Source of the DNA: Microbacterium sp. AK009
GTDB taxonomy: Bacteria; Actinomycetota; Actinomycetes; Actinomycetales; Microbacteriaceae
Assembly (NCBI RefSeq): GCF_013410955.1
Contig: NZ_JACCCG010000005.1
Coordinates: 1 to 64,000 of the forward strand
Reading direction: 5' to 3'
Length of the DNA: 64,000 nt
The notes under the pieces are model-generated. The model searched no databases. It was not told where the DNA came from and was given only the letters and a program-made list of their open reading frames with translations. This document shows positions 8,460-21,900 of this stretch, one piece after another. Positions within the stretch are counted from its first letter, which is position 1; each line of letters starts with the position of its first letter. A program made the position numbers and the translations under genes.

Positions 8460-10091
8460 CTAGTGGTTCGTCGCCTTCTCGGCACCGAAGCCGGTGAGCG
8501 AGCGCACCTCCATCTCCGCTGCCTTGGTGCGGCTCTCGCCGCCCCGGGAGGTGACCGATCCGAGCCAGCCGAGGAAGAACCCGACCGGGATCGAGACGAT
8601 CCCCGGGTTGTTCAGCGGCCAGATCGCGGTGCCCACCTTGAACACGCTGGTCTCCGACCCCCAGAAGACGGGCGAGAGCACGATGAGGATGATCGCCGCG
8701 GCGAGTCCTCCGTACATGCTCCACACCGCCCCGCGGGTGGTGAAGTTCCGCCAGAAGAGCGAGTACAGGATGGTCGGGAGGTTGGCCGATGCCGCCACCG
8801 CGAACGCGAGCGCCACGAGGAACGCGACGTTCTGACCCTGCACCGCGATGCCGCCGAGGATGGCGAGGATGCCGATCACGATGACGGTGCGCCGGGCGAC
8901 CTTCACCTCTCCGTCGGGCGGGACGTTGCCCTTCTTCACCACGTTGGCGTAGATGTCGTGCGCGAACGACGCCGCCGCCGTGATGGTCAGGCCCGCGACC
9001 ACCGCGAGGATCGTCGCGAACGCCACCGCGCTGATGAATCCGAGCAGCAGCGGTCCGCCGAGCTCGAGCGCGAGGAGCGGCGCGGCGGAGTTGACCCCGC
9101 CGGGCGCCGAGGCGATCCGTTCCGGGCCGACGAGCGCCGCAGCGCCGTAGCCCAGCACGAGGGTCAGCAGGTAGAACAGGCCAATCAGCCAGATCGCCCA
9201 CACCACCGAGCGACGTGCCTCCTTGGCGGTCGGCACCGTGTAGAAGCGCATCAGCACGTGCGGGAGGCCCGCGGTGCCGAGCACGAGCGCGATCGCGAGG
9301 GAGATGAAGTCCCACGGGTTGCCGCCGTACTGCAGGCCCGGGCCGAGGATCGCATCCGCCGGCTCGGTGACCGACGCCGCCACGGCGTTCTCGAGGAGCG
9401 TGTTCAGGCTGAAGCCGTTGATCGCCAGCACCCAGATGGTCATGACCAGCGCGCCGCCGATGAGCAGGAACGCCTTGACGATCTGCACCCAGGTGGTGCC
9501 CTTCATGCCGCCGACGAGGACGTAGACGATCATGATGACGCCGACGACGGCGACGACCACCGACTGCCCCACGGTCTCGGTGATGCCGAGGAGCAGCGCG
9601 ACGAGTCCCCCGGCCCCCGCCATCTGCGCCAGCAGATAGAAGAAGCACACCGCGAGCGTGGTGATCGCCGCGGCCATGCGCACGGGGCGCTCCTTCAGGC
9701 GGAAGGAGAGCACGTCGGCCATTGTGAACTTGCCGGTGTTGCGCATCAGCTCTGCCACGAGCAGCAGGGCGACGAGCCACGCGACGAGGAACCCGATGGA
9801 GTAGAGGAAGCCGTCGTACCCGTTGATGGCGATCGCGCCGCAGATGCCGAGGAAGGACGCTGCGGAGAGATAGTCGCCCGAAATGGCGAACCCGTTCTGC
9901 GGCCCGGTGAAAGAGCGTCCGGCGGCGTAATAGTCCGCGGCGGTCTTGTTGTTCCTACTGGCACGGATGACGATGAACAGGGTCACCGCGACGAATGCGC
10001 CGAAGATCGAGATGTTCAGTATCGGATTGTTCTCGGCGGTGTCGACCGCGGCGCTGACCGCCGACCCGACGGAGGCGAAGAATTCGTTCAT
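8460..10091 (-). CDS. actP: Cation/acetate-type sodium:solute symporter
   Basis: A 543-residue sodium:solute symporter (SSS family) with about 13 membrane segments. Features typical of the acetate permease subgroup are the N-terminal TM, then NNKTAADYYAAGRSFTGPQNG and FAISGDYLSAASFLG (about residues 47-80), and GGMKGTTWVQIVKAFLL (about residues 165-182). It would import acetate or another short monocarboxylate with Na+. Its start overlaps the stop of the upstream DUF485 gene by 4 bp, so the two are translationally coupled, as in yjcH-actP. The exact substrate is inferred. Confidence 0.92.
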   Translation of the reverse strand: MNEFFASVGSAVSAAVDTAENNPILNISIFGAFVAVTLFIVIRASRNNKTAADYYAAGRSFTGPQNGFAISGDYLSAASFLGICGAIAINGYDGFLYSIGFLVAWLVALLLVAELMRNTGKFTMADVLSFRLKERPVRMAAAITTLAVCFFYLLAQMAGAGGLVALLLGITETVGQSVVVAVVGVIMIVYVLVGGMKGTTWVQIVKAFLLIGGALVMTIWVLAINGFSLNTLLENAVAASVTEPADAILGPGLQYGGNPWDFISLAIALVLGTAGLPHVLMRFYTVPTAKEARRSVVWAIWLIGLFYLLTLVLGYGAAALVGPERIASAPGGVNSAAPLLALELGGPLLLGFISAVAFATILAVVAGLTITAAASFAHDIYANVVKKGNVPPDGEVKVARRTVIVIGILAILGGIAVQGQNVAFLVALAFAVAASANLPTILYSLFWRNFTTRGAVWSMYGGLAAAIILIVLSPVFWGSETSVFKVGTAIWPLNNPGIVSIPVGFFLGWLGSVTSRGGESRTKAAEMEVRSLTGFGAEKATNH

Positions 10092-10441
10092 GCGCCGGCC
10101 GCCTCTCGCTGCTCGAGTTCCTCACGGATCTCTTCGGCGATCGGGTCGAGTTTCCGGTTCGCGAACCAGACATAGAGCATCGTGATGCCGAAGGTGGTGA
10201 CGAATTGTCCGAGGCCGAACAGCAGGCCGACGGTGATGTCACCCCACACGCGCTGCGACATGAAGTCCACTGCGAAAGACGACAGCAGAACGTAGGCGAA
10301 GTACCAGACGAGGAACGCGATGGCGAAGGGGAAGATGAAACTGCGTTGCCGCCTCTTCAATTCACCGAAACGCGGCGATTCCTCCACCGCGATGTAGTCG
10401 ATTCCGCCCGGCGGGGCGGACTCGGTACGTCGATCGGACAT
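10088..10441 (-). CDS. DUF485 family membrane protein (YjcH-like)
   Basis: A 117-residue protein with two membrane helices (about residues 38-60 and 72-95) preceded by the family motif FGELKRRQRSFIFPF. DUF485 proteins are small partners encoded directly upstream of acetate permeases. AAGGAGG precedes the ATG by 5 nt, and the gene ends with a 4-bp ATGA overlap with the symporter gene. It is divergent from the GAF-LuxR regulator at 10583. Confidence 0.92.
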   Translation of the reverse strand: MSDRRTESAPPGGIDYIAVEESPRFGELKRRQRSFIFPFAIAFLVWYFAYVLLSSFAVDFMSQRVWGDITVGLLFGLGQFVTTFGITMLYVWFANRKLDPIAEEIREELEQREAAGA

Positions 10442-10582
10442 GTGGCCTCCTTGCACACAATCCCTGGGCGCTTTTCGCGCCGGTCCCGAACTGAAGACGC
10501 CCAACATCGACGGAGAGCGCCTGCTAGGGTCGACGCTACGAAAGGCGGCGACGCAGCCGTCACCCCCGGAAGTAGGTAGTTC

Positions 10583-11440
10583 GTGGTCGGTTCGCCGAAC
10601 GCTCCGAGCGACGTGCAACTCGTTTCCCGTGCCGTGGGAGATCTCACCCGCCGCACCGGCTTCCCCGTCGCGTTCGGCGGCCTCTCCCGCGACGACGCGA
10701 TCCACGTCTCCGCGATCTCCGGTGCCCGCACCCGGTACCTCGAGGGACTCGTCGTGCACCCGATGCGGGGTCTCGGCGGTCGCGCCTACGTCGAGAAGCG
10801 ACCGCGGCTCGCGCTGGACTACCGCACCGCCCGCAGCATCACACACGACTACGACCGCGCCATCCTCGGCGAGGGCATCGCCACCCTCTTCGCGGTGCCG
10901 GTCCTGGTGTCGGGGAAGCCGCGCGGCGTCATCTATTGCGGATCGTGGGGCGAGCGCCGCGTCGGCGACGTCATCGCCCGCCCCGCCTTCCAGGTCGCCG
11001 AGGAGCTCGCGACCGAGCTCCGCGTCCGAGACGAGGTGGCCCGGCGGCTGGAGACCTTCACCCCGTCGCAGCTGCCCGCGGCCGCGATGCCCGCCGCCGC
11101 GCGCGAGGAGCTGCGGGAGAGCTACGCCGAACTGCGCAGCATCGCCGCGGGAGTGGATGACGACGGGCTCCGCCAACGCTTGGCGCGCGTCGAACAGCGG
11201 CTGGCCGCGCTCACCCACGACGAGGCGAACCCGGCCAACACCGACATCCACCTCTCCCCCAGAGAGATCGACGTCCTCGCCCGCGCGGCACTCGGTGAGA
11301 CCAATAGCGAAATCGGCGAGACCCTCGGGCTTCGCGAAGCGACGGTGAAGTCGTATTTGAAATCGGCCATGGCGAAACTGGACGTCTCGACCCGCCATGC
11401 CGCGGTGATGCAAGCGCGTCGCGCGGGTCTTCTCCCCTGA
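10583..11440 (+). CDS. GAF and LuxR-type helix-turn-helix transcriptional regulator
   Basis: A 285-residue regulator. The N-terminal 150 residues resemble a GAF sensing domain (VHPMRGLGGRAYVEKRPRL; GEGIATLFAVPVLVSGKPRGVIYCG). A linker follows, then a C-terminal LuxR-type HTH (LSPREIDVLARAALGETNSEIGETLGLREATVKSYL, about residues 222-258). Divergent placement from the DUF485-symporter operon, with 141 bp between, makes it the likely regulator of monocarboxylate uptake. The start is GTG 10583; no ATG fits better. Confidence 0.88.
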   Translation: MVGSPNAPSDVQLVSRAVGDLTRRTGFPVAFGGLSRDDAIHVSAISGARTRYLEGLVVHPMRGLGGRAYVEKRPRLALDYRTARSITHDYDRAILGEGIATLFAVPVLVSGKPRGVIYCGSWGERRVGDVIARPAFQVAEELATELRVRDEVARRLETFTPSQLPAAAMPAAAREELRESYAELRSIAAGVDDDGLRQRLARVEQRLAALTHDEANPANTDIHLSPREIDVLARAALGETNSEIGETLGLREATVKSYLKSAMAKLDVSTRHAAVMQARRAGLLP

Positions 11441-11485
11441 ATTGCGCCATTTCGATGTTGACGGTGCGATTTCGTTGTCGCACCC

Positions 11486-11491
11486 CATAAT
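11486..11491 (+). promoter_or_regulatory. -10 box of the lsr2-like gene
   Basis: CATAAT lies 8 nt before the ATG at 11500, consistent with a leaderless transcript. Confidence 0.5.
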
Positions 11492-11499
11492 GTGTGACC

Positions 11500-11847
11500 A
11501 TGGCCCGAAAAATTGTGCACCAGCTCGTCGATGATCTGGACGGAACCGTCCTCGAAGTCGGCGAAGGCGAAACAGTCCTCTTCTCTCTCGACGGCGTCGC
11601 ATATGAGATCGACCTCACCGTCGACAATGCCACTGAATTCCGCGACACCTTGTCCCGATATGTAGACGCCGCCCGAACGGTGTCGACCGGCCGGGCGGCC
11701 GAATCCGCAGCATCCCGCAAGCGCCGCCGCACGGGACAGGCCGATTACACCGCCGTTCGCCAGTGGGCGAAAGAGCGCGGAATGTCCGTGTCGGAGCGAG
11801 GGCGCATTCCTGCCTCGGTGATGGAGGCGTACGAAGCCGCGCACTAG
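11500..11847 (+). CDS. Lsr2-family nucleoid-associated protein
   Basis: A 115-residue Lsr2, the actinobacterial bridging protein that binds AT-rich DNA and silences acquired genes. The N-terminal dimerisation part reads MARKIVHQLVDDLDG and GVAYEIDLTVDNATEFR. The C-terminal DNA-binding part normally carries the AT-hook-like RGR, seen here as SERGRIPASVMEAY (about residues 98-111). Length and layout are normal. This gene and its upstream region are visibly less GC-rich than their neighbours. Confidence 0.95.
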   Translation: MARKIVHQLVDDLDGTVLEVGEGETVLFSLDGVAYEIDLTVDNATEFRDTLSRYVDAARTVSTGRAAESAASRKRRRTGQADYTAVRQWAKERGMSVSERGRIPASVMEAYEAAH

Positions 11848-11988
11848 GCGCATCAGGTCGACGGGATTCGCGGCTCTTTCCGTGTTTCGTGGGTATCGGG
11901 TTGGAGAACGCTGGGTATCGGCGCCCTCGCTTGCAATGGCGCTCGATTCTCGGAAGCGTGGCTGACTCCACCACGGAAGGAGAAGCAC

Positions 11989-12273
11989 ATGCTCACTCTC
12001 ACCGAGAACGCCGCCACCGCTGTCAAGGCTGTGGTTGCGGGCACCCCCGACGTCCAGGCCGCCGGAATCCGCATCCGCGGAGCCGAGGCACCCACCGCCG
12101 GCTTCGAACTGACCCTAGCTCCGCAGCCCGAGCCTGCGGACGCCGTTGTCGAAGCGGATGGCGCGCGCGTCTTCCTTGACAGCACCGCGCAGGCGGCGCT
12201 GGACGACCAGATCCTCGACGCGCAGATGAACGATGACGGCTCGGTGCGCTTCGCCCTCGCGGCGCAGGCGTAA
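11989..12273 (+). CDS. HesB/IscA-like protein without cysteines
   Basis: A 94-residue protein with the A-type Fe-S carrier fold pattern (MLTLTENAATAVKAVV ... GIRIRG ... GFELTLAP ... VFLDSTAQAALDDQILDAQ). True IscA/HesB proteins use three conserved Cys residues; this protein contains none, so it cannot hold an Fe-S cluster in the known way. GGAAGGAGAAG before the ATG is a strong ribosome binding site. Annotation pipelines often call this family 'Fe-S cluster assembly protein', but that activity is not supported by the residues. Confidence 0.85.
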   Translation: MLTLTENAATAVKAVVAGTPDVQAAGIRIRGAEAPTAGFELTLAPQPEPADAVVEADGARVFLDSTAQAALDDQILDAQMNDDGSVRFALAAQA

Positions 12274-12292
12274 CGACTGAAGTAGTAAGACG

Positions 12293-12318
12293 GGCCTCGG
12301 TGCAGACGCACCGGGGCC
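12293..12318 (+). terminator. Hairpin terminator after the HesB-like gene
   Basis: GGCCTCGGTGC / GCACCGGGGCC with a 4-nt loop and one G-T pair, 20 nt after the stop and before the tRNA promoter. TTCGTCGTC follows instead of a clean T-run. Confidence 0.6.
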
Positions 12319-12333
12319 TTCGTCGTCGGCGGA

Positions 12334-12339
12334 TAGACT
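12334..12339 (+). promoter_or_regulatory. -10 box of tRNA-Arg
   Basis: TAGACT ends 10 nt before the mature 5' end of the tRNA, the same spacing as the -10 of the tRNA-Thr fragment at 53574-53611. Confidence 0.55.
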
Positions 12340-12349
12340 CGATTCGCCA

Positions 12350-12421
12350 GCCTCTGTAGCTCAATGGAAGAGCAGTTGCGTCCTAAGCAAACGGTTGGGG
12401 GTTCGAGTCCCTCTAGGGGCA
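12350..12421 (+). tRNA. tRNA-Arg (anticodon CCT)
   Basis: A 72-nt cloverleaf: acceptor GCCTCTG pairs with TAGGGGC (two wobble pairs), D-arm GCTC/GAGC, anticodon loop GTCCTAA giving CCT, T-arm with TTCGAGT loop, discriminator A. CCA is not encoded. The outermost anticodon-stem pair is a G-A mismatch. It would decode the AGG codon. Confidence 0.92.
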
Positions 12422-12444
12422 TAGGAGCACGAGAGGCTTGTGCT

Positions 12445-12960
12445 TCACGCTCGCGGGGCGGCGGTATCTCCCGAAGGCTGAGCCCCCGGCGCACCCTGCG
12501 CGGTGTTCGCCAAAAGGCTCTGAGCCCGGAGCAGCTCGTCGGACCTGACGGTCACGTCCCACCTCTCCGCAAGGAACTGCTTGACGGAGCTGAAGTCGCG
12601 GCGGCCCCGGGTGGCCAGGTGTCCGACGAAGCCGAACACCGCCCCCCAGAGCGCACCGAGGCCGAGGCCGAGGAGCAGCAGCAGGATCCACGCGGCGACG
12701 TTGTCGGCTAGTAGCCCGAAGAGCAGCCCGATGAGAAGGCCGAACCAGGCGCCAGAGGCCGCGCCGTAGCCGGCAGCCGTCCAGTTCGTCATCCGGCCGG
12801 TCACCTGCTCCTCGATCCGAACGTTGTAGCCGATAATCGCGACGTGCTCGACGGGGAACTGCTGATCAGACAGCCTGTCGACCGCCGCCTGCGCGTCGGC
12901 GTACTCGGTGAAGCTCGCCAGCACGGAGCGTGCCTGGCTAGAAGCTGCTGCGTCGGTCAC
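12445..12960 (-). CDS. General stress protein 17M-like membrane protein
   Basis: A 171-residue protein with an N-terminal domain like general stress protein 17M (VLASFTEYADAQAAVDRLSDQQFPVEHVAIIG, about residues 13-44) followed by a Gly-rich double membrane segment (ASGAWFGLLIGLLFGLLADN and AAWILLLLLGLGLGALWGAVF). Two nearby GTG codons are possible starts; the one at 12960 has GGGGGAG 5 nt upstream and is preferred to 12966. The role is unknown but stress-linked in the family. It ends 23 nt from the convergent tRNA-Arg. Confidence 0.85.
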   Translation of the reverse strand: MTDAAASSQARSVLASFTEYADAQAAVDRLSDQQFPVEHVAIIGYNVRIEEQVTGRMTNWTAAGYGAASGAWFGLLIGLLFGLLADNVAAWILLLLLGLGLGALWGAVFGFVGHLATRGRRDFSSVKQFLAERWDVTVRSDELLRAQSLLANTAQGAPGAQPSGDTAAPRA

Positions 12961-13137
12961 GGTCACTCCCCCGATTTCCTGCGGTATCGACCCCTCGCCA
13001 GATCCCCCGGCTGGTCCTCCGCCCATGGTGCGACACGGCGCCGACGACGTCAACGGCCTCCGAAACACCCGGCCCGCTGTGTGACGCCCGATGACAACCC
13101 GTTCGACCTCCCTCCGCGGCATCCCGATGCTGGAGGC

Positions 13138-14523
13138 ATGAGCAAGCAGATCCGGTTCAACGCCTTCGACATGAACTGCGTCGCGCACCAGTCATCCGGC
13201 ATGTGGCGGCATCCCGATGACCAGTCCGCCCGGTACAATGACCTCTCCTACTGGACCGACCTCGCTCGCCTCCTCGAACAGGGCACCTTCGACGGCATCT
13301 TCATCGCCGACGTGCTCGGCACCTACGACGTGTACGGCAACTCCAACGAGGCCGCGATCCGCCACGGCGCCCAAGTGCCGGTCAACGACCCGATCCTGCT
13401 CGTGTCGGCGATGGCTGCCGTCACCGAGAACCTCGGGTTCGGGGTGACCGCGGGCACCGCGTACGAGCACCCCTACCCGTTCGCCCGGCGCATGTCGACG
13501 CTCGACCACCTCACCAAGGGGCGGGTCGGCTGGAACGTCGTCACCGGGTACCTGCCGAGCGCCGCGCGCAACATGGGGCACGACGACCAGCTCGAGCACG
13601 ACCAGCGCTACGACGTCGCCGACGAGTACCTCGAGGTGCTCTACAAGCTGTGGGAGGGGTCTTGGGAGGATGACGCGGTCATCCGCGACCGCGAGAGCGG
13701 CGTCTTCACCGACCCGAGCAAGGTGCACGAGATCGGCCACTACGGCACGCACTACACCGTGCCCGGCATTCACCTGTGCGAGCCGTCGCCGCAGCGGACA
13801 CCCGTGATCTACCAAGCGGGGGCCTCCCCGCGCGGCATCGCGTTCGCCGCCGGAAACGCCGAGGCGATCTTCGTCGCCGCGCCCACCAAGCACGTGCTGA
13901 AGGCGACGGTCGCGCGCATCCGCGACGCCCTCGAGGCGGCGGGGCGACCGCGCGATGCCGCGAAGATCTACACCCTGCTGACGATCATCACCGACGAGAC
14001 CCCCGAGAAGGCGCGGGCAAAGCACGCCGACTTCCTCCAATACGCCAGCCCCGAGGGTGCGCTCGTGTTCATGTCGGGATGGATGGGCGTCGACCTGTCG
14101 GAGTACGACCTCGACGACCCGATCGGCAACGTGCAGAGCAACGCCATCCAGTCGACGGTGTCGAACTTCCAGGCCGCGAACGACGACGGCGAGGAATGGG
14201 TCGTGCGCGACATCGGCCGGCACAGCGCGATCGGCGGGCTCGGCCCCCTCATCGTGGGTGGACCCGAGGAGATCGCCGACGAGCTGCAGGCGTGGGTCGA
14301 CGAGACGGATGTCGACGGCTTCAACCTCGCCTACGCGATCACCCCCGGCACGTTCGAAGACATCGTGAAATGGGTCATTCCCGAGCTGCGGCGCCGGGGC
14401 GTCTACCCCGAGGCGTACGAGCCCGGCACCCTGCGGCAGAAGCTGCACGGGCGGGGCGACCGCCTGCCGGAAGACCACCACGGATCGCGCTACACCGTCG
14501 GGCAGGCCCTCACCGTCGGGTAG
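13138..14523 (+). CDS. NtaA/SnaA/DszA-type FMN-dependent monooxygenase
   Basis: A 461-residue flavin-dependent monooxygenase of the bacterial luciferase-like superfamily, nitrilotriacetate monooxygenase component A type. Typical features are IRFNAFDMNCVAHQSSGMWRHP at the N-terminus, LARLLEQGTFDGIFIADVLG, EHPYPFARRMSTLDHLTKGRVGWNVVT (about residues 111-137) and the C-terminal YAITPGTFEDIVKWVIPELRRRGVY. It needs FMNH2 from a separate reductase, none of which is adjacent. GGAGG lies close to the ATG at 13138. Its last codons and stop fall inside the first copy of a 30-bp direct repeat. Confidence 0.92.
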   Translation: MSKQIRFNAFDMNCVAHQSSGMWRHPDDQSARYNDLSYWTDLARLLEQGTFDGIFIADVLGTYDVYGNSNEAAIRHGAQVPVNDPILLVSAMAAVTENLGFGVTAGTAYEHPYPFARRMSTLDHLTKGRVGWNVVTGYLPSAARNMGHDDQLEHDQRYDVADEYLEVLYKLWEGSWEDDAVIRDRESGVFTDPSKVHEIGHYGTHYTVPGIHLCEPSPQRTPVIYQAGASPRGIAFAAGNAEAIFVAAPTKHVLKATVARIRDALEAAGRPRDAAKIYTLLTIITDETPEKARAKHADFLQYASPEGALVFMSGWMGVDLSEYDLDDPIGNVQSNAIQSTVSNFQAANDDGEEWVVRDIGRHSAIGGLGPLIVGGPEEIADELQAWVDETDVDGFNLAYAITPGTFEDIVKWVIPELRRRGVYPEAYEPGTLRQKLHGRGDRLPEDHHGSRYTVGQALTVG

Positions 14524-14534
14524 CGTCGCGGTAT
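14505..14534 (+). repeat. 30-bp direct repeat, copy 1
   Basis: Identical over 30 bp to 16240-16269. This copy covers the last five codons and the stop of the monooxygenase gene and a TAGCGT -10-like box (14521-14526). The two copies bracket the sulfatase gene. Confidence 0.95.
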
Positions 14535-16224
14535 CGGACTGGATGACACGGCGACCCCCGGGCGCCCGCAGAATCGTCACCTCGGTGGCGGCCTTGGGGT
14601 TGCGCCGCGGCCGCCGGCGAGCTGGCGGGCGACAATCGTCACGGCTCTCGCCTGGGTGGCGGTCTTCGGCGCCCCGCTCATCGCGGGAGCGCTCGATCCC
14701 GGCACGGGCCTGGCGCTGCGCCTGCCGGTGGAGACGATCCTCGTCCTGCTGATCGCCGTCGCCGTTCCCGACGGGGTGATCCGACGGGTCGTCGCCTACG
14801 CGTTCGGGGCCGTCACCGTCGCTGCGGCCCTCGTCGCACTGCTCGACCTGTCGTTCCGGGGAACGATCGACCGCGGTTTCGCCGCCACCGAAGACTGGCG
14901 CGCCGTCATCAACGCCTACAAGGTCGTCCAAGACGTGGTGGGGCCGATCACCGCCGCCCTCGCGGCCGTCGTCGTCATCGCGCTCGCGGTCGCTGCGGTG
15001 GCCGTTGTGGGTCGGTGCGTGCTGCGGTGCGCGCGGACGGTGTCGCGCGTCGGCGCACGGGGGCGGATGGCGGTCGCCGCCGCGGCGACCGCGTGGGTGA
15101 TCCTGTCGGTCGTCGGGGCGCAGCATCCCTCGGGAACTTCTGTCGCCTCGGCGGATGTCACGACGACCCTGGTCGGTGAAGCCGTGCAGGCGGCGGAGAG
15201 CATTCCCGAGCAGGAGGCCTTCGAGCAGGCGCTCCAGGACGACACTCTTGCGGGCGCACCTTCGGGCGAGCTGCTCGCGGGGCTGCGCGGCAAGGATGTC
15301 GTCATCGCGTTCGTCGAGAGCTACGGGGAGGTCGCGGTGTCGGGCGCCGAGCCGATGGCGGGCATCACCCAGGTGATCGACGACAGCGCCGCGCGGCTGA
15401 CGGCGGAGGCCTACCTCGCCCAGAGCGCGTTCCTCACCTCCCCCACCTTCGGCGGTGTCAGCTGGCTCGCCCACGGCACGCTGCAGAGCGGCGCGTGGGT
15501 GGACACGCAGCAGAAGTACGACGCGCTGATTTCGAGCGAGCGGATGACGCTGAGCCGCCTGTTCGGCGAGAGGGGCTGGCGCACGGTCACGGTCAACCCC
15601 GCCCACACCGAGCCGTGGCCGGAGGGTGAGGCGTTCTACGGTTTCGATCGGATGCTCGACGAGCAGCAACTGGCGTTCGATGGCCCCGCCTTCGGTTTCG
15701 CGCGCGTGCCCGATCAGTTCACCTGGCAGCGCTTCGTCGACGAGGAGCTGAGCCGCGACGACGCGGCGATCATGGCCGAGGTCTCTCTCGTGTCGTCGCA
15801 CACGCCGTGGACGCCGACGCCCCGGCTCGTGCCGTGGTCTGACCTCGGCGACGGCAGCGTCTTCGCCGATCAGCTGGACGACGCCGCCGCGGCGAGCTTC
15901 TGGCCGGACGAGCAGCGCATCCGCGCCGACTACGCCGACGCCATGCAGTACTCCCTCGGCGCGACGCTGTCGTTCGTCGAGGCCTACGACCCCGCCGATC
16001 TCGTGCTCGTGCTGGTGGGCGACCACCAGCCCTCCCGCGTCGTCAGCGGGCCCGACGCCGACAACGACGTGCCCATCACGATCATGTCGAAAGACCCCGC
16101 CGTGTTCGAGCGGATCGAAGCGTGGGGGTGGGATGCCGGGTTCCGGCCGTCAGCCGACGCGCCGGCGTGGCGCATGGATGCCTTCCGCGATCGGTTCGTC
16201 GACGCGTTCAGCGGAGCGGGCTGA
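14535..16224 (+). CDS. Sulfatase-like membrane hydrolase, start codon unclear
   Basis: The frame is open from just after the monooxygenase stop. It encodes an N-terminal part with about four membrane segments, then a sulfatase/phosphoglycerol-transferase-like domain: LRGKDVVIAFVESYGE, SPTFGGVSWLAHGTLQSG (nucleophile region), TVNPAHTEPWPEGEAFYGFD, and VLVLVGDHQPS (metal ligands) near the end. No ATG, GTG or TTG begins the frame before the first membrane segment. The codon at 14533, exactly where the next gene has its ATG after the same 30-bp repeat, is ATC in this frame; GTG 14656 would cut into the first helix. The 5' end may be truncated or mutated. The substrate is unknown. Confidence 0.75.
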
Positions 16225-16239
16225 GCGCGGCAGCCGCCG

Positions 16240-16269
16240 GGCCCTCACCGTCGGGTAGCGTCGCGGTAT
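16240..16269 (+). repeat. 30-bp direct repeat, copy 2
   Basis: Identical to 14505-14534. This copy holds the TAGCGT box (16256-16261) and the first two bases of the ATG of the isocitrate lyase/PEP mutase-type gene. Confidence 0.95.
16256..16261 (+). promoter_or_regulatory. -10 box of the isocitrate lyase/PEP mutase-type gene
   Basis: TAGCGT lies 6 nt before the ATG at 16268; leaderless arrangement. Confidence 0.5.
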
Positions 16270-17050
16270 GACCTCCGAGACCAGCACGCAGGACAAGGCA
16301 CGCACGCTGCAGGCGCTTCATGAGGCGCCGGAGATTCTGCAGGTGGTGAACGTCTGGGACGCGATCAGCGCGAAGGTGATCGCCGACCTCCCCCAGACGC
16401 GAGCTCTTGCCACCGCCGGGCACTCGATCGCGGCGAGCCTCGGCTACCCCGACGGCGGGATGCCGCTCGACACCGCCCTGGACGCGGCGGGCCTCATCGC
16501 CCGGTCGGTCGACCTGCCCGTCAGCGCCGATCTCGACGACGGATACGACGACCCGGCGGAGACCGTGCGGCGCGCGATCGGCCTCGGCATCGTCGGCGCC
16601 AACATCGAAGACCGCATGCGCCCCTTCGACGAGGCGGTCGCGCGCGTCCACGCCGCGGTGCGTGCCGCGGAGGCCGAGGGTGTCACCTTCCAGCTGAACG
16701 CACGCACCGACGCCCTCATCCGCGGCGGCGACGCGCCCATCGAAGAGCGCATCGACGAGGCCATCCGACGCGGCCGGGCGTTCCTCGACGAAGGCGCGGC
16801 CCTGGTGTTCGTCCCCGGCGCGCTCCAGCGACCGCATGTCGAGCGCATCGTCGACGCGCTCGGGCCGCTGAAGCTGTCGGTCATCGGCCTGCCCGGAGCA
16901 CTGCCGGCGACCGACTACGAGCAGCTCGGCGTCGCGCGCATCTCCTACGGTCCGCTCACCCAGCGCGTCGCGCTCCGGGCCCTCCGCGATCTCGGCGAAG
17001 AGCTGTACGCCGGTGGGGTCATCCCCGCAGACACTCCCGCGCTGAACTGA
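16268..17050 (+). CDS. Isocitrate lyase / phosphoenolpyruvate mutase family protein
   Basis: A 260-residue TIM-barrel enzyme of the ICL/PEP mutase superfamily, whose members cleave or form C-C or C-P bonds in 2-methylisocitrate-, oxaloacetate- or phosphonate-type acids. Motifs: VVNVWDAISAKVIADL (about residues 25-40), LPVSADLDDGYDD (metal-binding Asp cluster), GANIEDRMRPFDEAVARVHAA and FQLNARTDALIRGG. It lacks the KKCGH lyase motif of true isocitrate lyases, so the reaction is undefined. The SRPBCC gene follows 13 nt later. Confidence 0.88.
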   Translation: MTSETSTQDKARTLQALHEAPEILQVVNVWDAISAKVIADLPQTRALATAGHSIAASLGYPDGGMPLDTALDAAGLIARSVDLPVSADLDDGYDDPAETVRRAIGLGIVGANIEDRMRPFDEAVARVHAAVRAAEAEGVTFQLNARTDALIRGGDAPIEERIDEAIRRGRAFLDEGAALVFVPGALQRPHVERIVDALGPLKLSVIGLPGALPATDYEQLGVARISYGPLTQRVALRALRDLGEELYAGGVIPADTPALN

Positions 17051-17063
17051 CGCCGCTGACGCC

Positions 17064-17495
17064 ATGTTCACCGTCACCGAGATCGTCCTGATCGCGCGTT
17101 CACGCGCCGACGTCTTCGCCTACCTCACCGACGCCGGCCGGCGCCCCGAGTGGGACGAGACCGTCATCTCCGAAAGGTTGACCTCGCCCCCGCCGGTCGG
17201 GGTGGGGAGCACGATCCACAGCCGGATGCGCGTCATGGGCCGCGAGGTCGATTTCCACTGGCAGGTCACCGAGTACCTGCCGCCCGGACGGATGGCCATC
17301 GTCAGCACGAAGGGCACGTTCCCGACATCCCTCCTGTTCGAGCTCGCCGACGAGGCCGCGGGAACCCGCGTGAGCGCCACCATCGACGGCGAGCCCTCGG
17401 GCATGCTGCGGCTGGTGGAGCCGATGATCGAAGACTCGATCCGCTCGACCCTGGCGACCGGACTCGGCCGGGTCGTCCGCATCCTGGAGGCGTGA
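17064..17495 (+). CDS. SRPBCC family protein
   Basis: A 143-residue protein of the START/polyketide-cyclase-like SRPBCC fold, a hydrophobic ligand-binding cavity: FTVTEIVLIARSRADVFAYLTDAGRRPEWDETVI at the N-terminus and a C-terminal long helix (SIRSTLATGLGRVVRIL). Start ATG 17064, 13 nt after the preceding gene, so probably the second gene of that unit. The ligand is unknown. Confidence 0.85.
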   Translation: MFTVTEIVLIARSRADVFAYLTDAGRRPEWDETVISERLTSPPPVGVGSTIHSRMRVMGREVDFHWQVTEYLPPGRMAIVSTKGTFPTSLLFELADEAAGTRVSATIDGEPSGMLRLVEPMIEDSIRSTLATGLGRVVRILEA

Positions 17496-17571
17496 GCAAG
17501 GCCGTCGCGATCAGGCCTGTCGTCGAGAGATCATTCCGCCCCGGATGGCGCGGATGCACCATCATGGAAGG

Positions 17572-17742
17572 GTGACCTCTCGCCTTCCCCTCCTGGTGTC
17601 CTTGGCCTCGCTCGGCATCCTGTTCCTGTCGATCATCTTCGTCTTCCTCCTGGTGATCGGCAGCTACTTCGGGATCGTCCCGTTCACCGAGAACCACGAG
17701 TCCACCGAGGCACTCGCGCACGCGCTCGCTCTCGTCGCCTGA
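17572..17742 (+). CDS. Small single-pass membrane protein, 56 aa
   Basis: A GTG-started ORF with a short basic N-terminus, one strong membrane segment (LVSLASLGILFLSIIFVFLL, about residues 7-26) continuing to IGSYFGIVPF, and a polar C-terminal tail. No family is recognised. It sits 47 bp before the VIT-family gene on the same strand. Confidence 0.55.
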   Translation: MTSRLPLLVSLASLGILFLSIIFVFLLVIGSYFGIVPFTENHESTEALAHALALVA

Positions 17743-17776
17743 CCGGTCCGCTCTTCTCGCCGCCCCTCGGCGGCGG

Positions 17777-17782
17777 TAACGT
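17777..17782 (+). promoter_or_regulatory. -10 box of the VIT-family gene
   Basis: TAACGT lies 6 nt before the GTG at 17789; leaderless arrangement. Confidence 0.5.
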
Positions 17783-17788
17783 CGGGCC

Positions 17789-18514
17789 GTGACCGAGGAT
17801 CGCGTCTCGACAGGGCACCCCGGTGAGCCGCACCGGCCCGGGCTCGCCCAGCGGCTGAACGGACTGCGCGCCGGTGTGCTCGGTGCCAACGACGGCATCG
17901 TCTCCACCGCAGCAGTGGTCGTCGGTGTGGCGGGCGCGACGGCGGAGGTCGGTCCGGTTCTGCTCGCGGGCGCCGCGGCCCTCGTCGGCGGCGCGGTCTC
18001 CATGGCCCTCGGTGAGTACGTGTCGGTGTCGAGCCAGCGCGACAGCGAGCACGCGCTGATCGAGAAGGAGCGCCGCGAGCTCGCCACCGACCCCGAGGGC
18101 GAGTTCGCTGAACTCGTCGACCTCTACCGCGCACAGGGGCTCAGCGAGCAGACGGCGACCGCGGTGGCGAAGGAGCTGACCGAGAGCGACGCCCTCGCCG
18201 CGCACCTCTCCATCGAGCTGAACATCGATCAGAGCGATGTCGTCAGCCCCTGGTCGGCCGCCATCGCCTCGGCGGTCGCCTTCACGATCGGCGCCCTGCT
18301 CCCCCTCGCGACGATCCTCCTCGTCCCCCACCCCGCCCGCATCTGGCTCACCTTCGTGAGCGTCCTCATCGCCCTCGCCGTCACCGGATACGTCGCCGCG
18401 TGGATCGGCGGCGCCCGGCGCCTCCGCGCCGTCATCCGCACGGTCGTCGGCGGAGCACTCGCGCTCGGCGCGACCTACCTCATCGGCACGCTGCTCGGCA
18501 CCGGAGTGGCCTGA
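17789..18514 (+). CDS. VIT1/CCC1 family Fe2+/Mn2+ transporter
   Basis: A 241-residue membrane protein of the vacuolar iron transporter family. The N-terminal NGLRAGVLGANDGIVSTAAVVVGVAGA (about residues 16-42) and AGAAALVGGAVSMALGEYVSVSSQRD (about residues 53-78) are the diagnostic metal-binding first helices. A cytoplasmic helical segment rich in Glu follows (about residues 80-150), then three more membrane helices. It likely moves Fe2+ or Mn2+ out of the cytosol. Confidence 0.92.
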   Translation: MTEDRVSTGHPGEPHRPGLAQRLNGLRAGVLGANDGIVSTAAVVVGVAGATAEVGPVLLAGAAALVGGAVSMALGEYVSVSSQRDSEHALIEKERRELATDPEGEFAELVDLYRAQGLSEQTATAVAKELTESDALAAHLSIELNIDQSDVVSPWSAAIASAVAFTIGALLPLATILLVPHPARIWLTFVSVLIALAVTGYVAAWIGGARRLRAVIRTVVGGALALGATYLIGTLLGTGVA

Positions 18515-18619
18515 CCGCCGCGGAGGGATTCTGCCACACCAGCGCGAGAAGCGAAAGGGAGCAGTCAGCACGCTGGAAGTGGAGTTCACTGGTGTCCCAG
18601 GCAGAAGGACGAGGACGCC

Positions 18620-18928
18620 ATGCTGACCGAGTCACCCCGCGCATCCAGGGAGCCGTTCGACAGGAAGCCGCTCGGCACCGAGCAGCTCAAGACGGGGCCG
18701 CTCCACACGGACCAGTTCGAACTCGTGCGGCTTGCGGCCGGGGGCTGGGTCATCACCGATCTCGCTCTGCCGCATGACGATCCGGCCTGTCTCCTCGCCT
18801 ACGTGCAGGACGATGGATCGCGGTTCGAGGTCGTCTGGGTTCAGCCGCCGGTGCGGACCGGATGGTTCGACTCCCTCGACGAGATCCTCGATGAGGCTCG
18901 CGCGCGCCGGCACCGGCGCGCGGCCTGA
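18620..18928 (+). CDS. Hypothetical protein, 102 aa
   Basis: A soluble, acidic protein with WVITDLALPHDDPACLLAYVQDDGSRFEVVWV in the centre and an Arg-rich tail. GAGGAC 4-5 nt before the ATG is a plausible ribosome binding site. Codon use is normal for the genome. No domain is recognised. It is convergent with dnaE2, with 36 bp between. Confidence 0.65.
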   Translation: MLTESPRASREPFDRKPLGTEQLKTGPLHTDQFELVRLAAGGWVITDLALPHDDPACLLAYVQDDGSRFEVVWVQPPVRTGWFDSLDEILDEARARRHRRAA

Positions 18929-18964
18929 GCGTCGCGTCACCGTCGGCTCGAGGCATCCACGCGG

Positions 18965-21900
18965 TCAGCGGAAGTCGCGCGAGCGGTGACCCACCCCCAC
19001 CCGCAGGTCTTCGAACCGGTCGGCGACGAGGTTCGTCACCCCTTCCGCTGAGCGCTCCAGCATTCCCCGCACGATGAGGGCCGGCGAATCCCGAGCCACC
19101 CGTCGATAGCGGTTCCAGACCCCGACCGAGCAGATGACGTTGACGACGCCGTGCTCGTCTTCGAGGTTGAGGAAGGTGATGCCCGACGCTGTGGCGGGCC
19201 GCTGGCGGTGGGTGACGAGGCCCGCCACCTCGACGCGCCGGTCCGGGTCGTGCGTCCGCAGCTCTCGTGAGGTCAACACGCCCCGCGCATCCAGCCCCGA
19301 GCGGAAATGCGTCAGCGGGTGGTCGTCGGTGGAGATCCCGGTCGCCCACAGGTCTGCGGCGAGGATGTCGTAGCTGGACTGATCCGGGAAGAGCGGTGGC
19401 TGCACCGCGACCATCGATTCGGGGAGGAACTCCGCACGGTCCTGTGCGGCGGACCCGGCGATCCAGAGCGCCTCGCGCCGGGTGATCCCGAAGCACTCGA
19501 ACGCTCCCGCCGTGGCGAGCGCCTCCAGCTGGGCCGCGGTGGCCCCGGTCCGGCGGACGAGATCCCGCATGTCGCGGTAGTCGCCCCGCTGCCGTCGCTC
19601 GGTCACGATTTTCGCGGCGAGCGCGTCGCCGATCCCCTTGATCGCCGCGAGCCCGAGCCGCACGGCGTGGTGACCGTCCCGCCGATGCGCGGCCGACTCA
19701 TCGGGCGCTGCCGGGTCGAAGACCGGCACCGCAGGCTGGGTGCGATGCGCGCACTCGGGGCGGCCGGTGACACCGCGTTCGTCGCCCACGGGCTCGAGCG
19801 TCGCATGCACATCGGAGCGGAGCAGATCGGGGCGCTGCACCTCCACCCCGTGCCGGCGCGCATCGGCGACGAGGGTGGCGGGCGAGTAGAACCCCATCGG
19901 CTGCGCCCGGAGGAGCCCCGCGAGGAAGGCCGCGGGATAGTGCAGCTTGATCCAGGAGCTGGCGTAGACGAGGAGCCCGAACGACAGCGAGTGCGACTCG
20001 GCGAAGCCGAAGTTCGCAAAGGCCTGGATCTGACGGTAGATCGCGTCGGCGTCCTCTCCGACGAGGCCGTTGCGCGCCATCCCCTCGTACAGGCGCTCGC
20101 GGAGCGACTCGATCCGCTCGACTCCCCGCTTGGACCCCATCGCACGACGCAACAGGTCGGCATCCTCACCGGAGCAGTCGCCGATGGCCATCGCCATCTG
20201 CATGAGCTGCTCTTGGAACACCGGCACCCCCAGGGTGCGCTGCAGCACGGGCGCGAGCTTCGGGTGGGCATAGGTCACCGGCTCCTGACCGAGCTTCCTC
20301 CGTACGAACGGATGCACCGCCCCGCCCTGGATGGGACCGGGGCGGATGAGGGCGATCTCCACCACGAGGTCGTAGAACCGGCGCGGCTGCAACCGAGGGA
20401 GAAGGCCCATCTGGGCACGGGATTCGACCTGGAACACCCCGATCGAATCGGCCCGGCAGAGCATGTCGTACACCGCCTGCTCCTCCTTGGGGAGGGTCGC
20501 CAGCTCCCATCGCTCGCCGGTGGCGGTGTGGATCATGTCGAAGCAGTACTGCAGGGCCGCGAGCATCCCGAGGCCCAGCAGGTCGAACTTCACCAGCCCC
20601 ATCCAGGCCGCGTCGTCTTTGTCCCACTGGATGACGGTGCGATCCTCCATGCGGGCGTGCTCGATGGGCACCACTTCGCCGACGGGCCTGTCGGTGAGCA
20701 CCATCCCCCCGGAGTGGATCCCGAGGTGGCGGGGGGCCTTCAGCAGCTCGGAGGCGTACTCGACCACCTGGGCGGGGATGTCGTTGTCGGGAGCGGACTC
20801 CAGTGACGCCCCCCAGCGCTCGACCTGCTTGGACCACGCGTCCTGCTGGCCGGTGGAGTAGCCAAGAGCCTTGGCGACGTCGCGGACGGCGTTCTTGGGC
20901 CGGTACTGGATGACGTTCGCCACCTGGGCGGCGCGGTCACGGCCGTAGGTGGCGTAGACCCACTGGATGATCTCCTCGCGCCGGTCGGAGTCGAAGTCGA
21001 CGTCGATATCGGGCTCTTCGTCCCGGAGGCTGGAGAGGAAGCGCTCGAAGGGCAGCTCGTAGGCGATGGCGTCGACCGCAGTGATGTCGAGCAGGTAGCA
21101 GACCGCGCTGTTGGCGGCCGACCCGCGCCCCTGACAGAGGATGCCGCGGCGCCGCGCCTCTTGCACGATGCCGTGCACGATGAGGAAGTAGCCGGGGAAG
21201 TCCTTGGTCTCGATGACCTGCAGCTCCCGCTCGATGCGCGCGCGGTTCTCGGCCGACAGGTCGGGATACTTGCGGGGAACGGCCTCCCACACCAGGTGAC
21301 GCAGCCACGTCATCGGCGTGTGCCCCTCGGGAACCTTCTGGCGCGGCAGCGCCGGGCGCGCGCGCCGCAGTGGAAAGGCCAGCTCGTCGGCGAGCTGCAC
21401 CGTGCGCGCCACCGCTCCGGGGTAGCGGGCGAAGCGCTCGGCCATTTCGGCCCCGGAGCGCAGGTGCGCGGCGGCGTGGGCGGGCAGCCATCCGTCGAGC
21501 TCGTCCAGCCCCCGGCGCGCGCGGATCGCGGCGACGGCGGCGGCGAGCCGCGCCCGCTCGGGGGCGGCGTAGTGGACGTTGTTGGAGGCCAGCAGCGGCA
21601 GCCCGCGCTCGCGGGCGAGGGCGGTGAGGATGTCGTTGTCGCGGGTGTCGGTCGGGTTGCCGTGATCGATGAGTTCGACGTTCACCGCCTCCGGGCCGAA
21701 CAGCGCCACGAGGCGGTCGAGCTCGGCGGCGGCGCCCGTCGGTCCGTCGTCGGCGAGCGCGCGGCGAACGGCGCCCTTGCGGCATCCGGTGAGGATCGCC
21801 CAGTGCCCGTCCGCCCGCTCGGCCAGCTCATCGAGGTCGTAGACGGGACGCCCCTTCTCCGACCCCGCGAGCTGGGCACGGGTGAGGGCAGCGGCGAGCC

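Follow-up and report, generated by a model that had tools for sequence, protein, structure and literature searches.

How does a gene come to lie between two perfect copies of a 30-bp sequence that its genome holds nowhere else? The question arises in the window analysed here, a stretch of 64,000 nucleotides from Microbacterium sp. AK009, where the 3' end of a monooxygenase gene and the 5' end of a mutase-type gene share 30 identical bases on either side of a putative sulfatase gene. The original prediction saw in this arrangement either an insertion that duplicated the junction or a unit that can be lost by recombination.

Genes at the locus and the repeat pair

The features of the locus are as follows.

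13138..14523, + strand: FMN-dependent monooxygenase of the NtaA/DmoA family (TIGR03860, PF00296), with stop codon TAG at 14521-14523
14505..14534, + strand: copy 1 of the 30-mer, covering the five final monooxygenase codons, the stop codon and 11 nt more; presumed sulfatase promoter
14521..14526, + strand: TAGCGT, putative -10-like box, read from its pattern, which includes the monooxygenase stop codon
14521..14580, + strand: block with 1/60 variable sites among four relatives and 9/60 when this genome is included
14533..14535, + strand: ATC at the expected leaderless start codon position in five species (ATG in G232)
14533..16224, + strand: sulfatase-superfamily protein (weak PF00884), whose first canonical in-frame start comes only at 14656
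16240..16269, + strand: copy 2 of the 30-mer, a leaderless-type promoter with the first two bases of the mutase ATG
16256..16261, + strand: TAGCGT, putative -10-like box of the mutase promoter, likewise read from its pattern
16268..17050, + strand: PEP mutase / isocitrate lyase superfamily protein (PF13714)

The perfect 30-nt identity that was first noticed between 14505-14534 and 16240-16269 is confirmed at these coordinates. The copies lie 1735 nt apart, start to start, and the base right after the repeat differs, giving ATC at copy 1 and ATG at copy 2. A plain arithmetic estimate puts the chance of finding 30 bp perfectly repeated within 64 kb at far less than one per million windows. In the genome as searched (14 contigs; 3,463,163 bases, or 3.46 Mb), 26 of the repeat's 30 nt find 2 matches at up to 3 mismatches, and the reversed control finds 0. 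Many genomic occurrences of the 30-mer, which the original prediction had named as an outcome that would speak against it, are not seen, there being two copies. A dispersed repeat of the REP or MITE type requires many copies and was rejected at this count. The 21-nt core, GTCGGGTAGCGTCGCGGTATG, is similarly rare, with 3 matches in this genome at up to 3 mismatches, the third of them elsewhere and carrying 3 mismatches, and a regulon under one operator was rejected on this rarity.

The monooxygenase scores 562.7 bits against TIGR03860, where the cut-off is 279.7. Its homologues elsewhere have comparable C-termini, such as GQAVSG in G271 and GAKVSVG in G001, so its end looks native. The name sulfatase for the gene between the repeats is a weak one: the protein reaches 24.3 bits against PF00884, below the curated cut-off of 25, and an NCBIfam search gave no match at E ≤ 0.001. 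It is the only plus-strand open reading frame (ORF) of at least 120 aa wholly inside the repeats, where a 129-aa minus-strand ORF also lies; the domain scan of this interval covered the sulfatase. Within the group of related species described below, dN/dS is 0.19-0.29 for the sulfatase and 0.11-0.18 for the mutase (15/15 pairs each), and 0.03-0.06 for the monooxygenase (6/6 pairs, four species).

At all eight other monooxygenase loci checked by tblastn (L056-L061, L063 and L067, with ~2.4-5.9 kb of flank per side) neither a sulfatase nor a mutase gene is a neighbour. The nearest sulfatase homologues, at 66%, are in G302 and G240, and neither monooxygenase nor mutase adjoins them within regions of 12-13 kb. 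A plasmid origin was considered and rejected: 24 plasmid records match, and among the 20 matches listed only the monooxygenase part of the query aligned. A tRNA-Arg (CCT) gene lies at window positions 12350-12421, upstream of the variable locus.

Gene order and divergence of the copies in related species

Among the matches listed in a search of 366 genus genomes, the sulfatase-then-mutase order occurs in six species including this one, whose genome we label G000; the others are G118, G241, G040, G114 and G232. G118 and G241 align with the query from the monooxygenase end through the mutase. G040 and G114 align in two pieces ~800 nt apart and carry an additional gene in the interval from sulfatase to mutase, suggesting that the same promoter junction took up or lost a second gene. 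G232 has the sulfatase-mutase order and is missing the monooxygenase 3' end. This genome and its five relatives are 83-92% identical in nucleotides over sulfatase and mutase, and ~83-95% identical in DNA over the aligned genes from monooxygenase to dnaE2.

The copies are imperfect in all five relatives and perfect only in G000 among the six. Over the box and the next 5 nt, they agree at 10 or 11 of 11 positions in all six species. Over the 16 nt before the box, agreement falls from 16 in G000 to 14 in G241, 12 in both G118 and G040, 10 in G232 and 8 in G114. The last value is within the range of unrelated promoters, since 34 of 40 control flanks of 16 nt match at 8 or fewer positions and the six exceptions had been picked by a pattern sharing GTCGGG. 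Copy 1 reads CTCCCC in the four relatives that have the monooxygenase end, with one further difference in G114, as against CTCACC in G000; of the six species, only G000 therefore has the perfect match, which one or two substitutions explain. Copy 2 has a one-base insertion between box and ATG in G118 and G040. The copy-1 core is conserved in 4/4 relatives that keep the monooxygenase end, and with it the TAGCGT box over the TAG stop codon.

Single-gene trees conflict, and the concatenated tree firmly unites only G114 and G232 (99; other nodes 65-84), so some exchange between species is likely. The sulfatase-mutase spacer is almost identical in G241 and G232, which no firm node groups, and the two may for this reason not be independent.

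The surroundings of the three genes vary further. The extra gene of G040 (L051:8277-8942) is of the AhpC/TSA type (PF00578), and the frame of that in G114 (in the L052 spacer) seems, by eye, to extend into GTCGGGTAG, the mutase box. In G241, IS21-type istA/istB genes (L050:3510-5503) stand in place of the first part of the monooxygenase. The monooxygenase match of G232 stops at window position 13720 and is followed on the other strand by an AAA-ATPase gene with an N-terminal acetyltransferase-like part (L053:5720-7114), which occupies the expected place of the monooxygenase 3' half; this stretch is matched by 56 of the 366 genus genomes, G232 included. G118 has an ORF directly upstream of the monooxygenase that we take to be a fatty-acid desaturase. 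Where the window has a short spacer between the cyclase-type and VIT1 genes, G114 has two extra ORFs of 100 and 257 aa (L052:3242-4318).

A predicted leaderless promoter at each copy

In both copies TAGCGT is followed by the 6 nt CGCGGT and then by a start position, which is the layout of a leaderless promoter; no Shine-Dalgarno site was seen by eye at these start positions. Leaderless genes with TANNNT ~12 bp upstream are common in Actinobacteria, according to the portion of Zheng et al. (2011, PMC3160421) considered here. The mutase gene is like them, having such a box ~12 bp 5' of its start codon, with TAGCGT 6 nt before the ATG. The sulfatase gene has its box at the same distance, ~12 bp 5' of its start position. 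As in mycobacterial leaderless translation, on the passages of Shell et al. (2015, PMC4633059) used here, the start position follows the promoter directly. Unlike the leaderless genes in that portion of PMC3160421, the locus holds two near-identical modules 1.7 kb apart, and the sulfatase copy is followed in five species by ATC rather than ATG or GTG.

The box seems native to the mutase gene, to judge from homologous sequences: 21 of 26 mutase homologues outside the group (25 from genus genomes, one from another family) have TANNNT 4-8 nt 5' of a start, where 0.6 would be expected after shuffling. Nor is the core peculiar to this locus. At up to 2 mismatches it has 27 matches in 22 of the 366 genus genomes, compared with 5 for the reversed pattern, and 10 of the 27 fall in the six-species group. 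At 15 of the other 17, an ORF of 130 aa or more begins with the expected ATG or GTG, and these belong to ~8 gene families as judged by eye; the core pattern itself includes ATG, so it is the open frame, and not the codon, that tests these matches. We infer that both copies are active as promoters and that the sulfatase is expressed from copy 1. In five species the sulfatase has no ATG or GTG at the leaderless position, a codon that mycobacterial work (PMC4633059) found to be required, so copy 1 may fail to function as an ordinary leaderless promoter.

The start of the sulfatase

Neither ATG nor GTG stands at the expected 5' end of the sulfatase in G000, G118, G241, G040 and G114. These are the species whose copy 1 overlaps the monooxygenase, and all five have ATC. 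Behind this promoter core G232 carries an ATG instead, and its N-terminal tail is shorter and different. Between the monooxygenase stop and codon 42, that codon included, the in-frame ATG, GTG or TTG codons are GTG at codon 42 in the five species and GTG at codon 29 in G114; in the other four of the five, none precedes the conserved TALAW. Codon 42 directly follows TALAW, and ALAW is also present in G232, G302 and G240. As this conserved motif precedes codon 42, translation should begin earlier. Across 14533-14655 and its counterparts in four relatives, no canonical start precedes a conserved hydrophobic stretch, apart from the GTG at codon 29 in G114.

We regard it as possible though doubtful that these five Microbacterium species begin translation of the sulfatase at an AUC forming the extreme 5' end of a leaderless mRNA, perhaps as a brake on expression. 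In mycobacteria, which differ in this from the sulfatase, only ATG or GTG worked at the leaderless 5' end and ATC served as the negative control; ATC with a Shine-Dalgarno site gave low activity above background (both from the same passages of PMC4633059). The consulted part of PMC11497404 makes no mention of AUC. The 41-codon tail has 10, 10 and 11 variable sites by codon position, without periodicity, and no frame stands out in its counts of synonymous and nonsynonymous changes. Because mycobacteria rejected ATC and the tail has no codon periodicity, we keep the AUC start as a candidate and not as a finding. The tail has no indels in 10 pairs with 6-22 substitutions each, which is not telling because two neighbouring spacers have just 1-4 gap runs per 33-60 substitutions. 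The low variability of the block 14521-14580 rises when this genome is included, so its conservation is not general; its 30-nt windows then have 2 and 7 variable sites, a level that many monooxygenase windows match.

Readthrough of the monooxygenase stop codon into the sulfatase is possible, the two genes being in the same frame in 5/5 species; against it, the sulfatase of G232 starts with ATG and no monooxygenase 3' end precedes it. Two further candidates were rejected. In four species the TGA of a candidate upstream ORF forms part of a GTGA overlap, but G000 lacks this TGA and in G114 an earlier break interrupts the frame. A structured 5' RNA finds no Rfam match (10000-20000 yielded none besides a tRNA); the folding of 14533-14600 and its counterparts is no more stable than that of shuffled sequences (z of 1.12, 1.48 and -0.10 in the three of five sequences that were folded), and the consensus fold has changes on both sides at 1 of 20 pairs.

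Origin of the two copies

The best reading, which we consider probable without holding it as settled, is that an old duplication of the junction has been retained as two compact promoters of the predicted leaderless kind. The junction sequence would be such a promoter in itself, with TAGCGT, 6 nt, and then a shared start point for transcription and translation. Copy 2 would drive the mutase gene, and copy 1, over the monooxygenase stop codon, the sulfatase gene. The duplication would predate the split of the six species and would probably have occurred when the sulfatase entered between monooxygenase and mutase, or after; the promoter core would have been kept since as the remaining repeat drifted, and one or two chance substitutions would suffice for the perfect match in G000. 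We infer this order of events from the sequences compared. That the monooxygenase/mutase junction was duplicated long ago is likely, and the duplication itself is the part of the original prediction that finds support.

A generic promoter would account only for the core and not for the similarity upstream of it. When the region upstream of copy 2 is compared with the monooxygenase 3' coding end, the shuffles scoring as well (out of 2000) number 0 in G241, 1 in G232 and 3 in G000; they number 47 in G118, a weak result, 86 in G114, where the alignment is off the box, and 200 in G040. The same scores are reached by 0, 0 and 1 of 36 control promoters in G241, G232 and G000, the one scoring above G000 having been picked by a pattern sharing GTCGGG, and by 3, 3 and 9 in G118, G114 and G040. 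The copy-2 region thus resembles the monooxygenase 3' end in three of the six species, and weakly or not in the other three.

Short gene conversion or template switching between the two promoters, after the sulfatase was in place and not via its insertion, would suit a shared stretch of just ~35-45 nt, as well as the lone copy-1 change in G000, which is toward copy 2; the conflicting gene trees, too, make local exchange likely here. One substitution does not prove conversion, however, and conversion by itself leaves unexplained why the sulfatase lies between the copies, and we judge this reading unlikely. We also think it unlikely that the copies share no origin, two generic leaderless promoters having converged and the monooxygenase end having come to overlap one of them. 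The core is indeed found upstream of other genes, and the copy-2 flank scores are reached by 10% of shuffles in G040 and by 4% in G114, with the alignment away from the box. But in G000, G241 and G232 the similarity reaches 10-14 nt beyond the upstream edge of the core, in the codon register of the monooxygenase, and 34 of the 40 control flanks stay at 8 matches or fewer, the exceptions being those picked for GTCGGG.

Least probable is that the sulfatase was recently inserted with duplication of the junction, or is a cassette lost via recombination of the 30-mer: the repeat is perfect only in this genome among the six species and has no further copies in it, but five relatives share the order, their repeats have diverged, the only ORF scanned inside the repeats is the sulfatase, with no transposase, as had been noted at the outset, and no match across the joined monooxygenase and mutase ends turned up among 366 genomes at E ≤ 1e-45 (a threshold at which 96 of them, including the six, gave a match of some kind and weaker joined sites would go unseen). 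The comparison proposed with the original prediction, for a relative with monooxygenase and mutase joined by a single 30-bp copy, found no such empty site and no instance of loss in this search; the same order with diverged repeats, which it had set beforehand as the contrary outcome, is largely what the relatives show. Perfect direct repeats flanking a gene are like an IS insertion with target-site duplication; unlike in such an insertion, the repeats are 30 nt long, promoter-like and common to several species. A mobile element was rejected, with neither transposase nor integrase found among the scanned ORFs between the repeats and no third copy, and none of 25 of the 28 inverted pairs in 12500-18500 forms terminal inverted repeats just inside the direct repeats. 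A recent insert or removable unit is not supported, and the sulfatase gene appears to be a long-standing resident.

Under an old junction duplication, a conspicuous perfect repeat can consist of two promoter copies that were kept, and not be the scar of a recent event, and a gene entering between two others might acquire its promoter through duplication of the junction. Were the ATC start true, the sulfatase would also be an exception to the requirement for AUG or GUG in leaderless translation that was established in mycobacteria.
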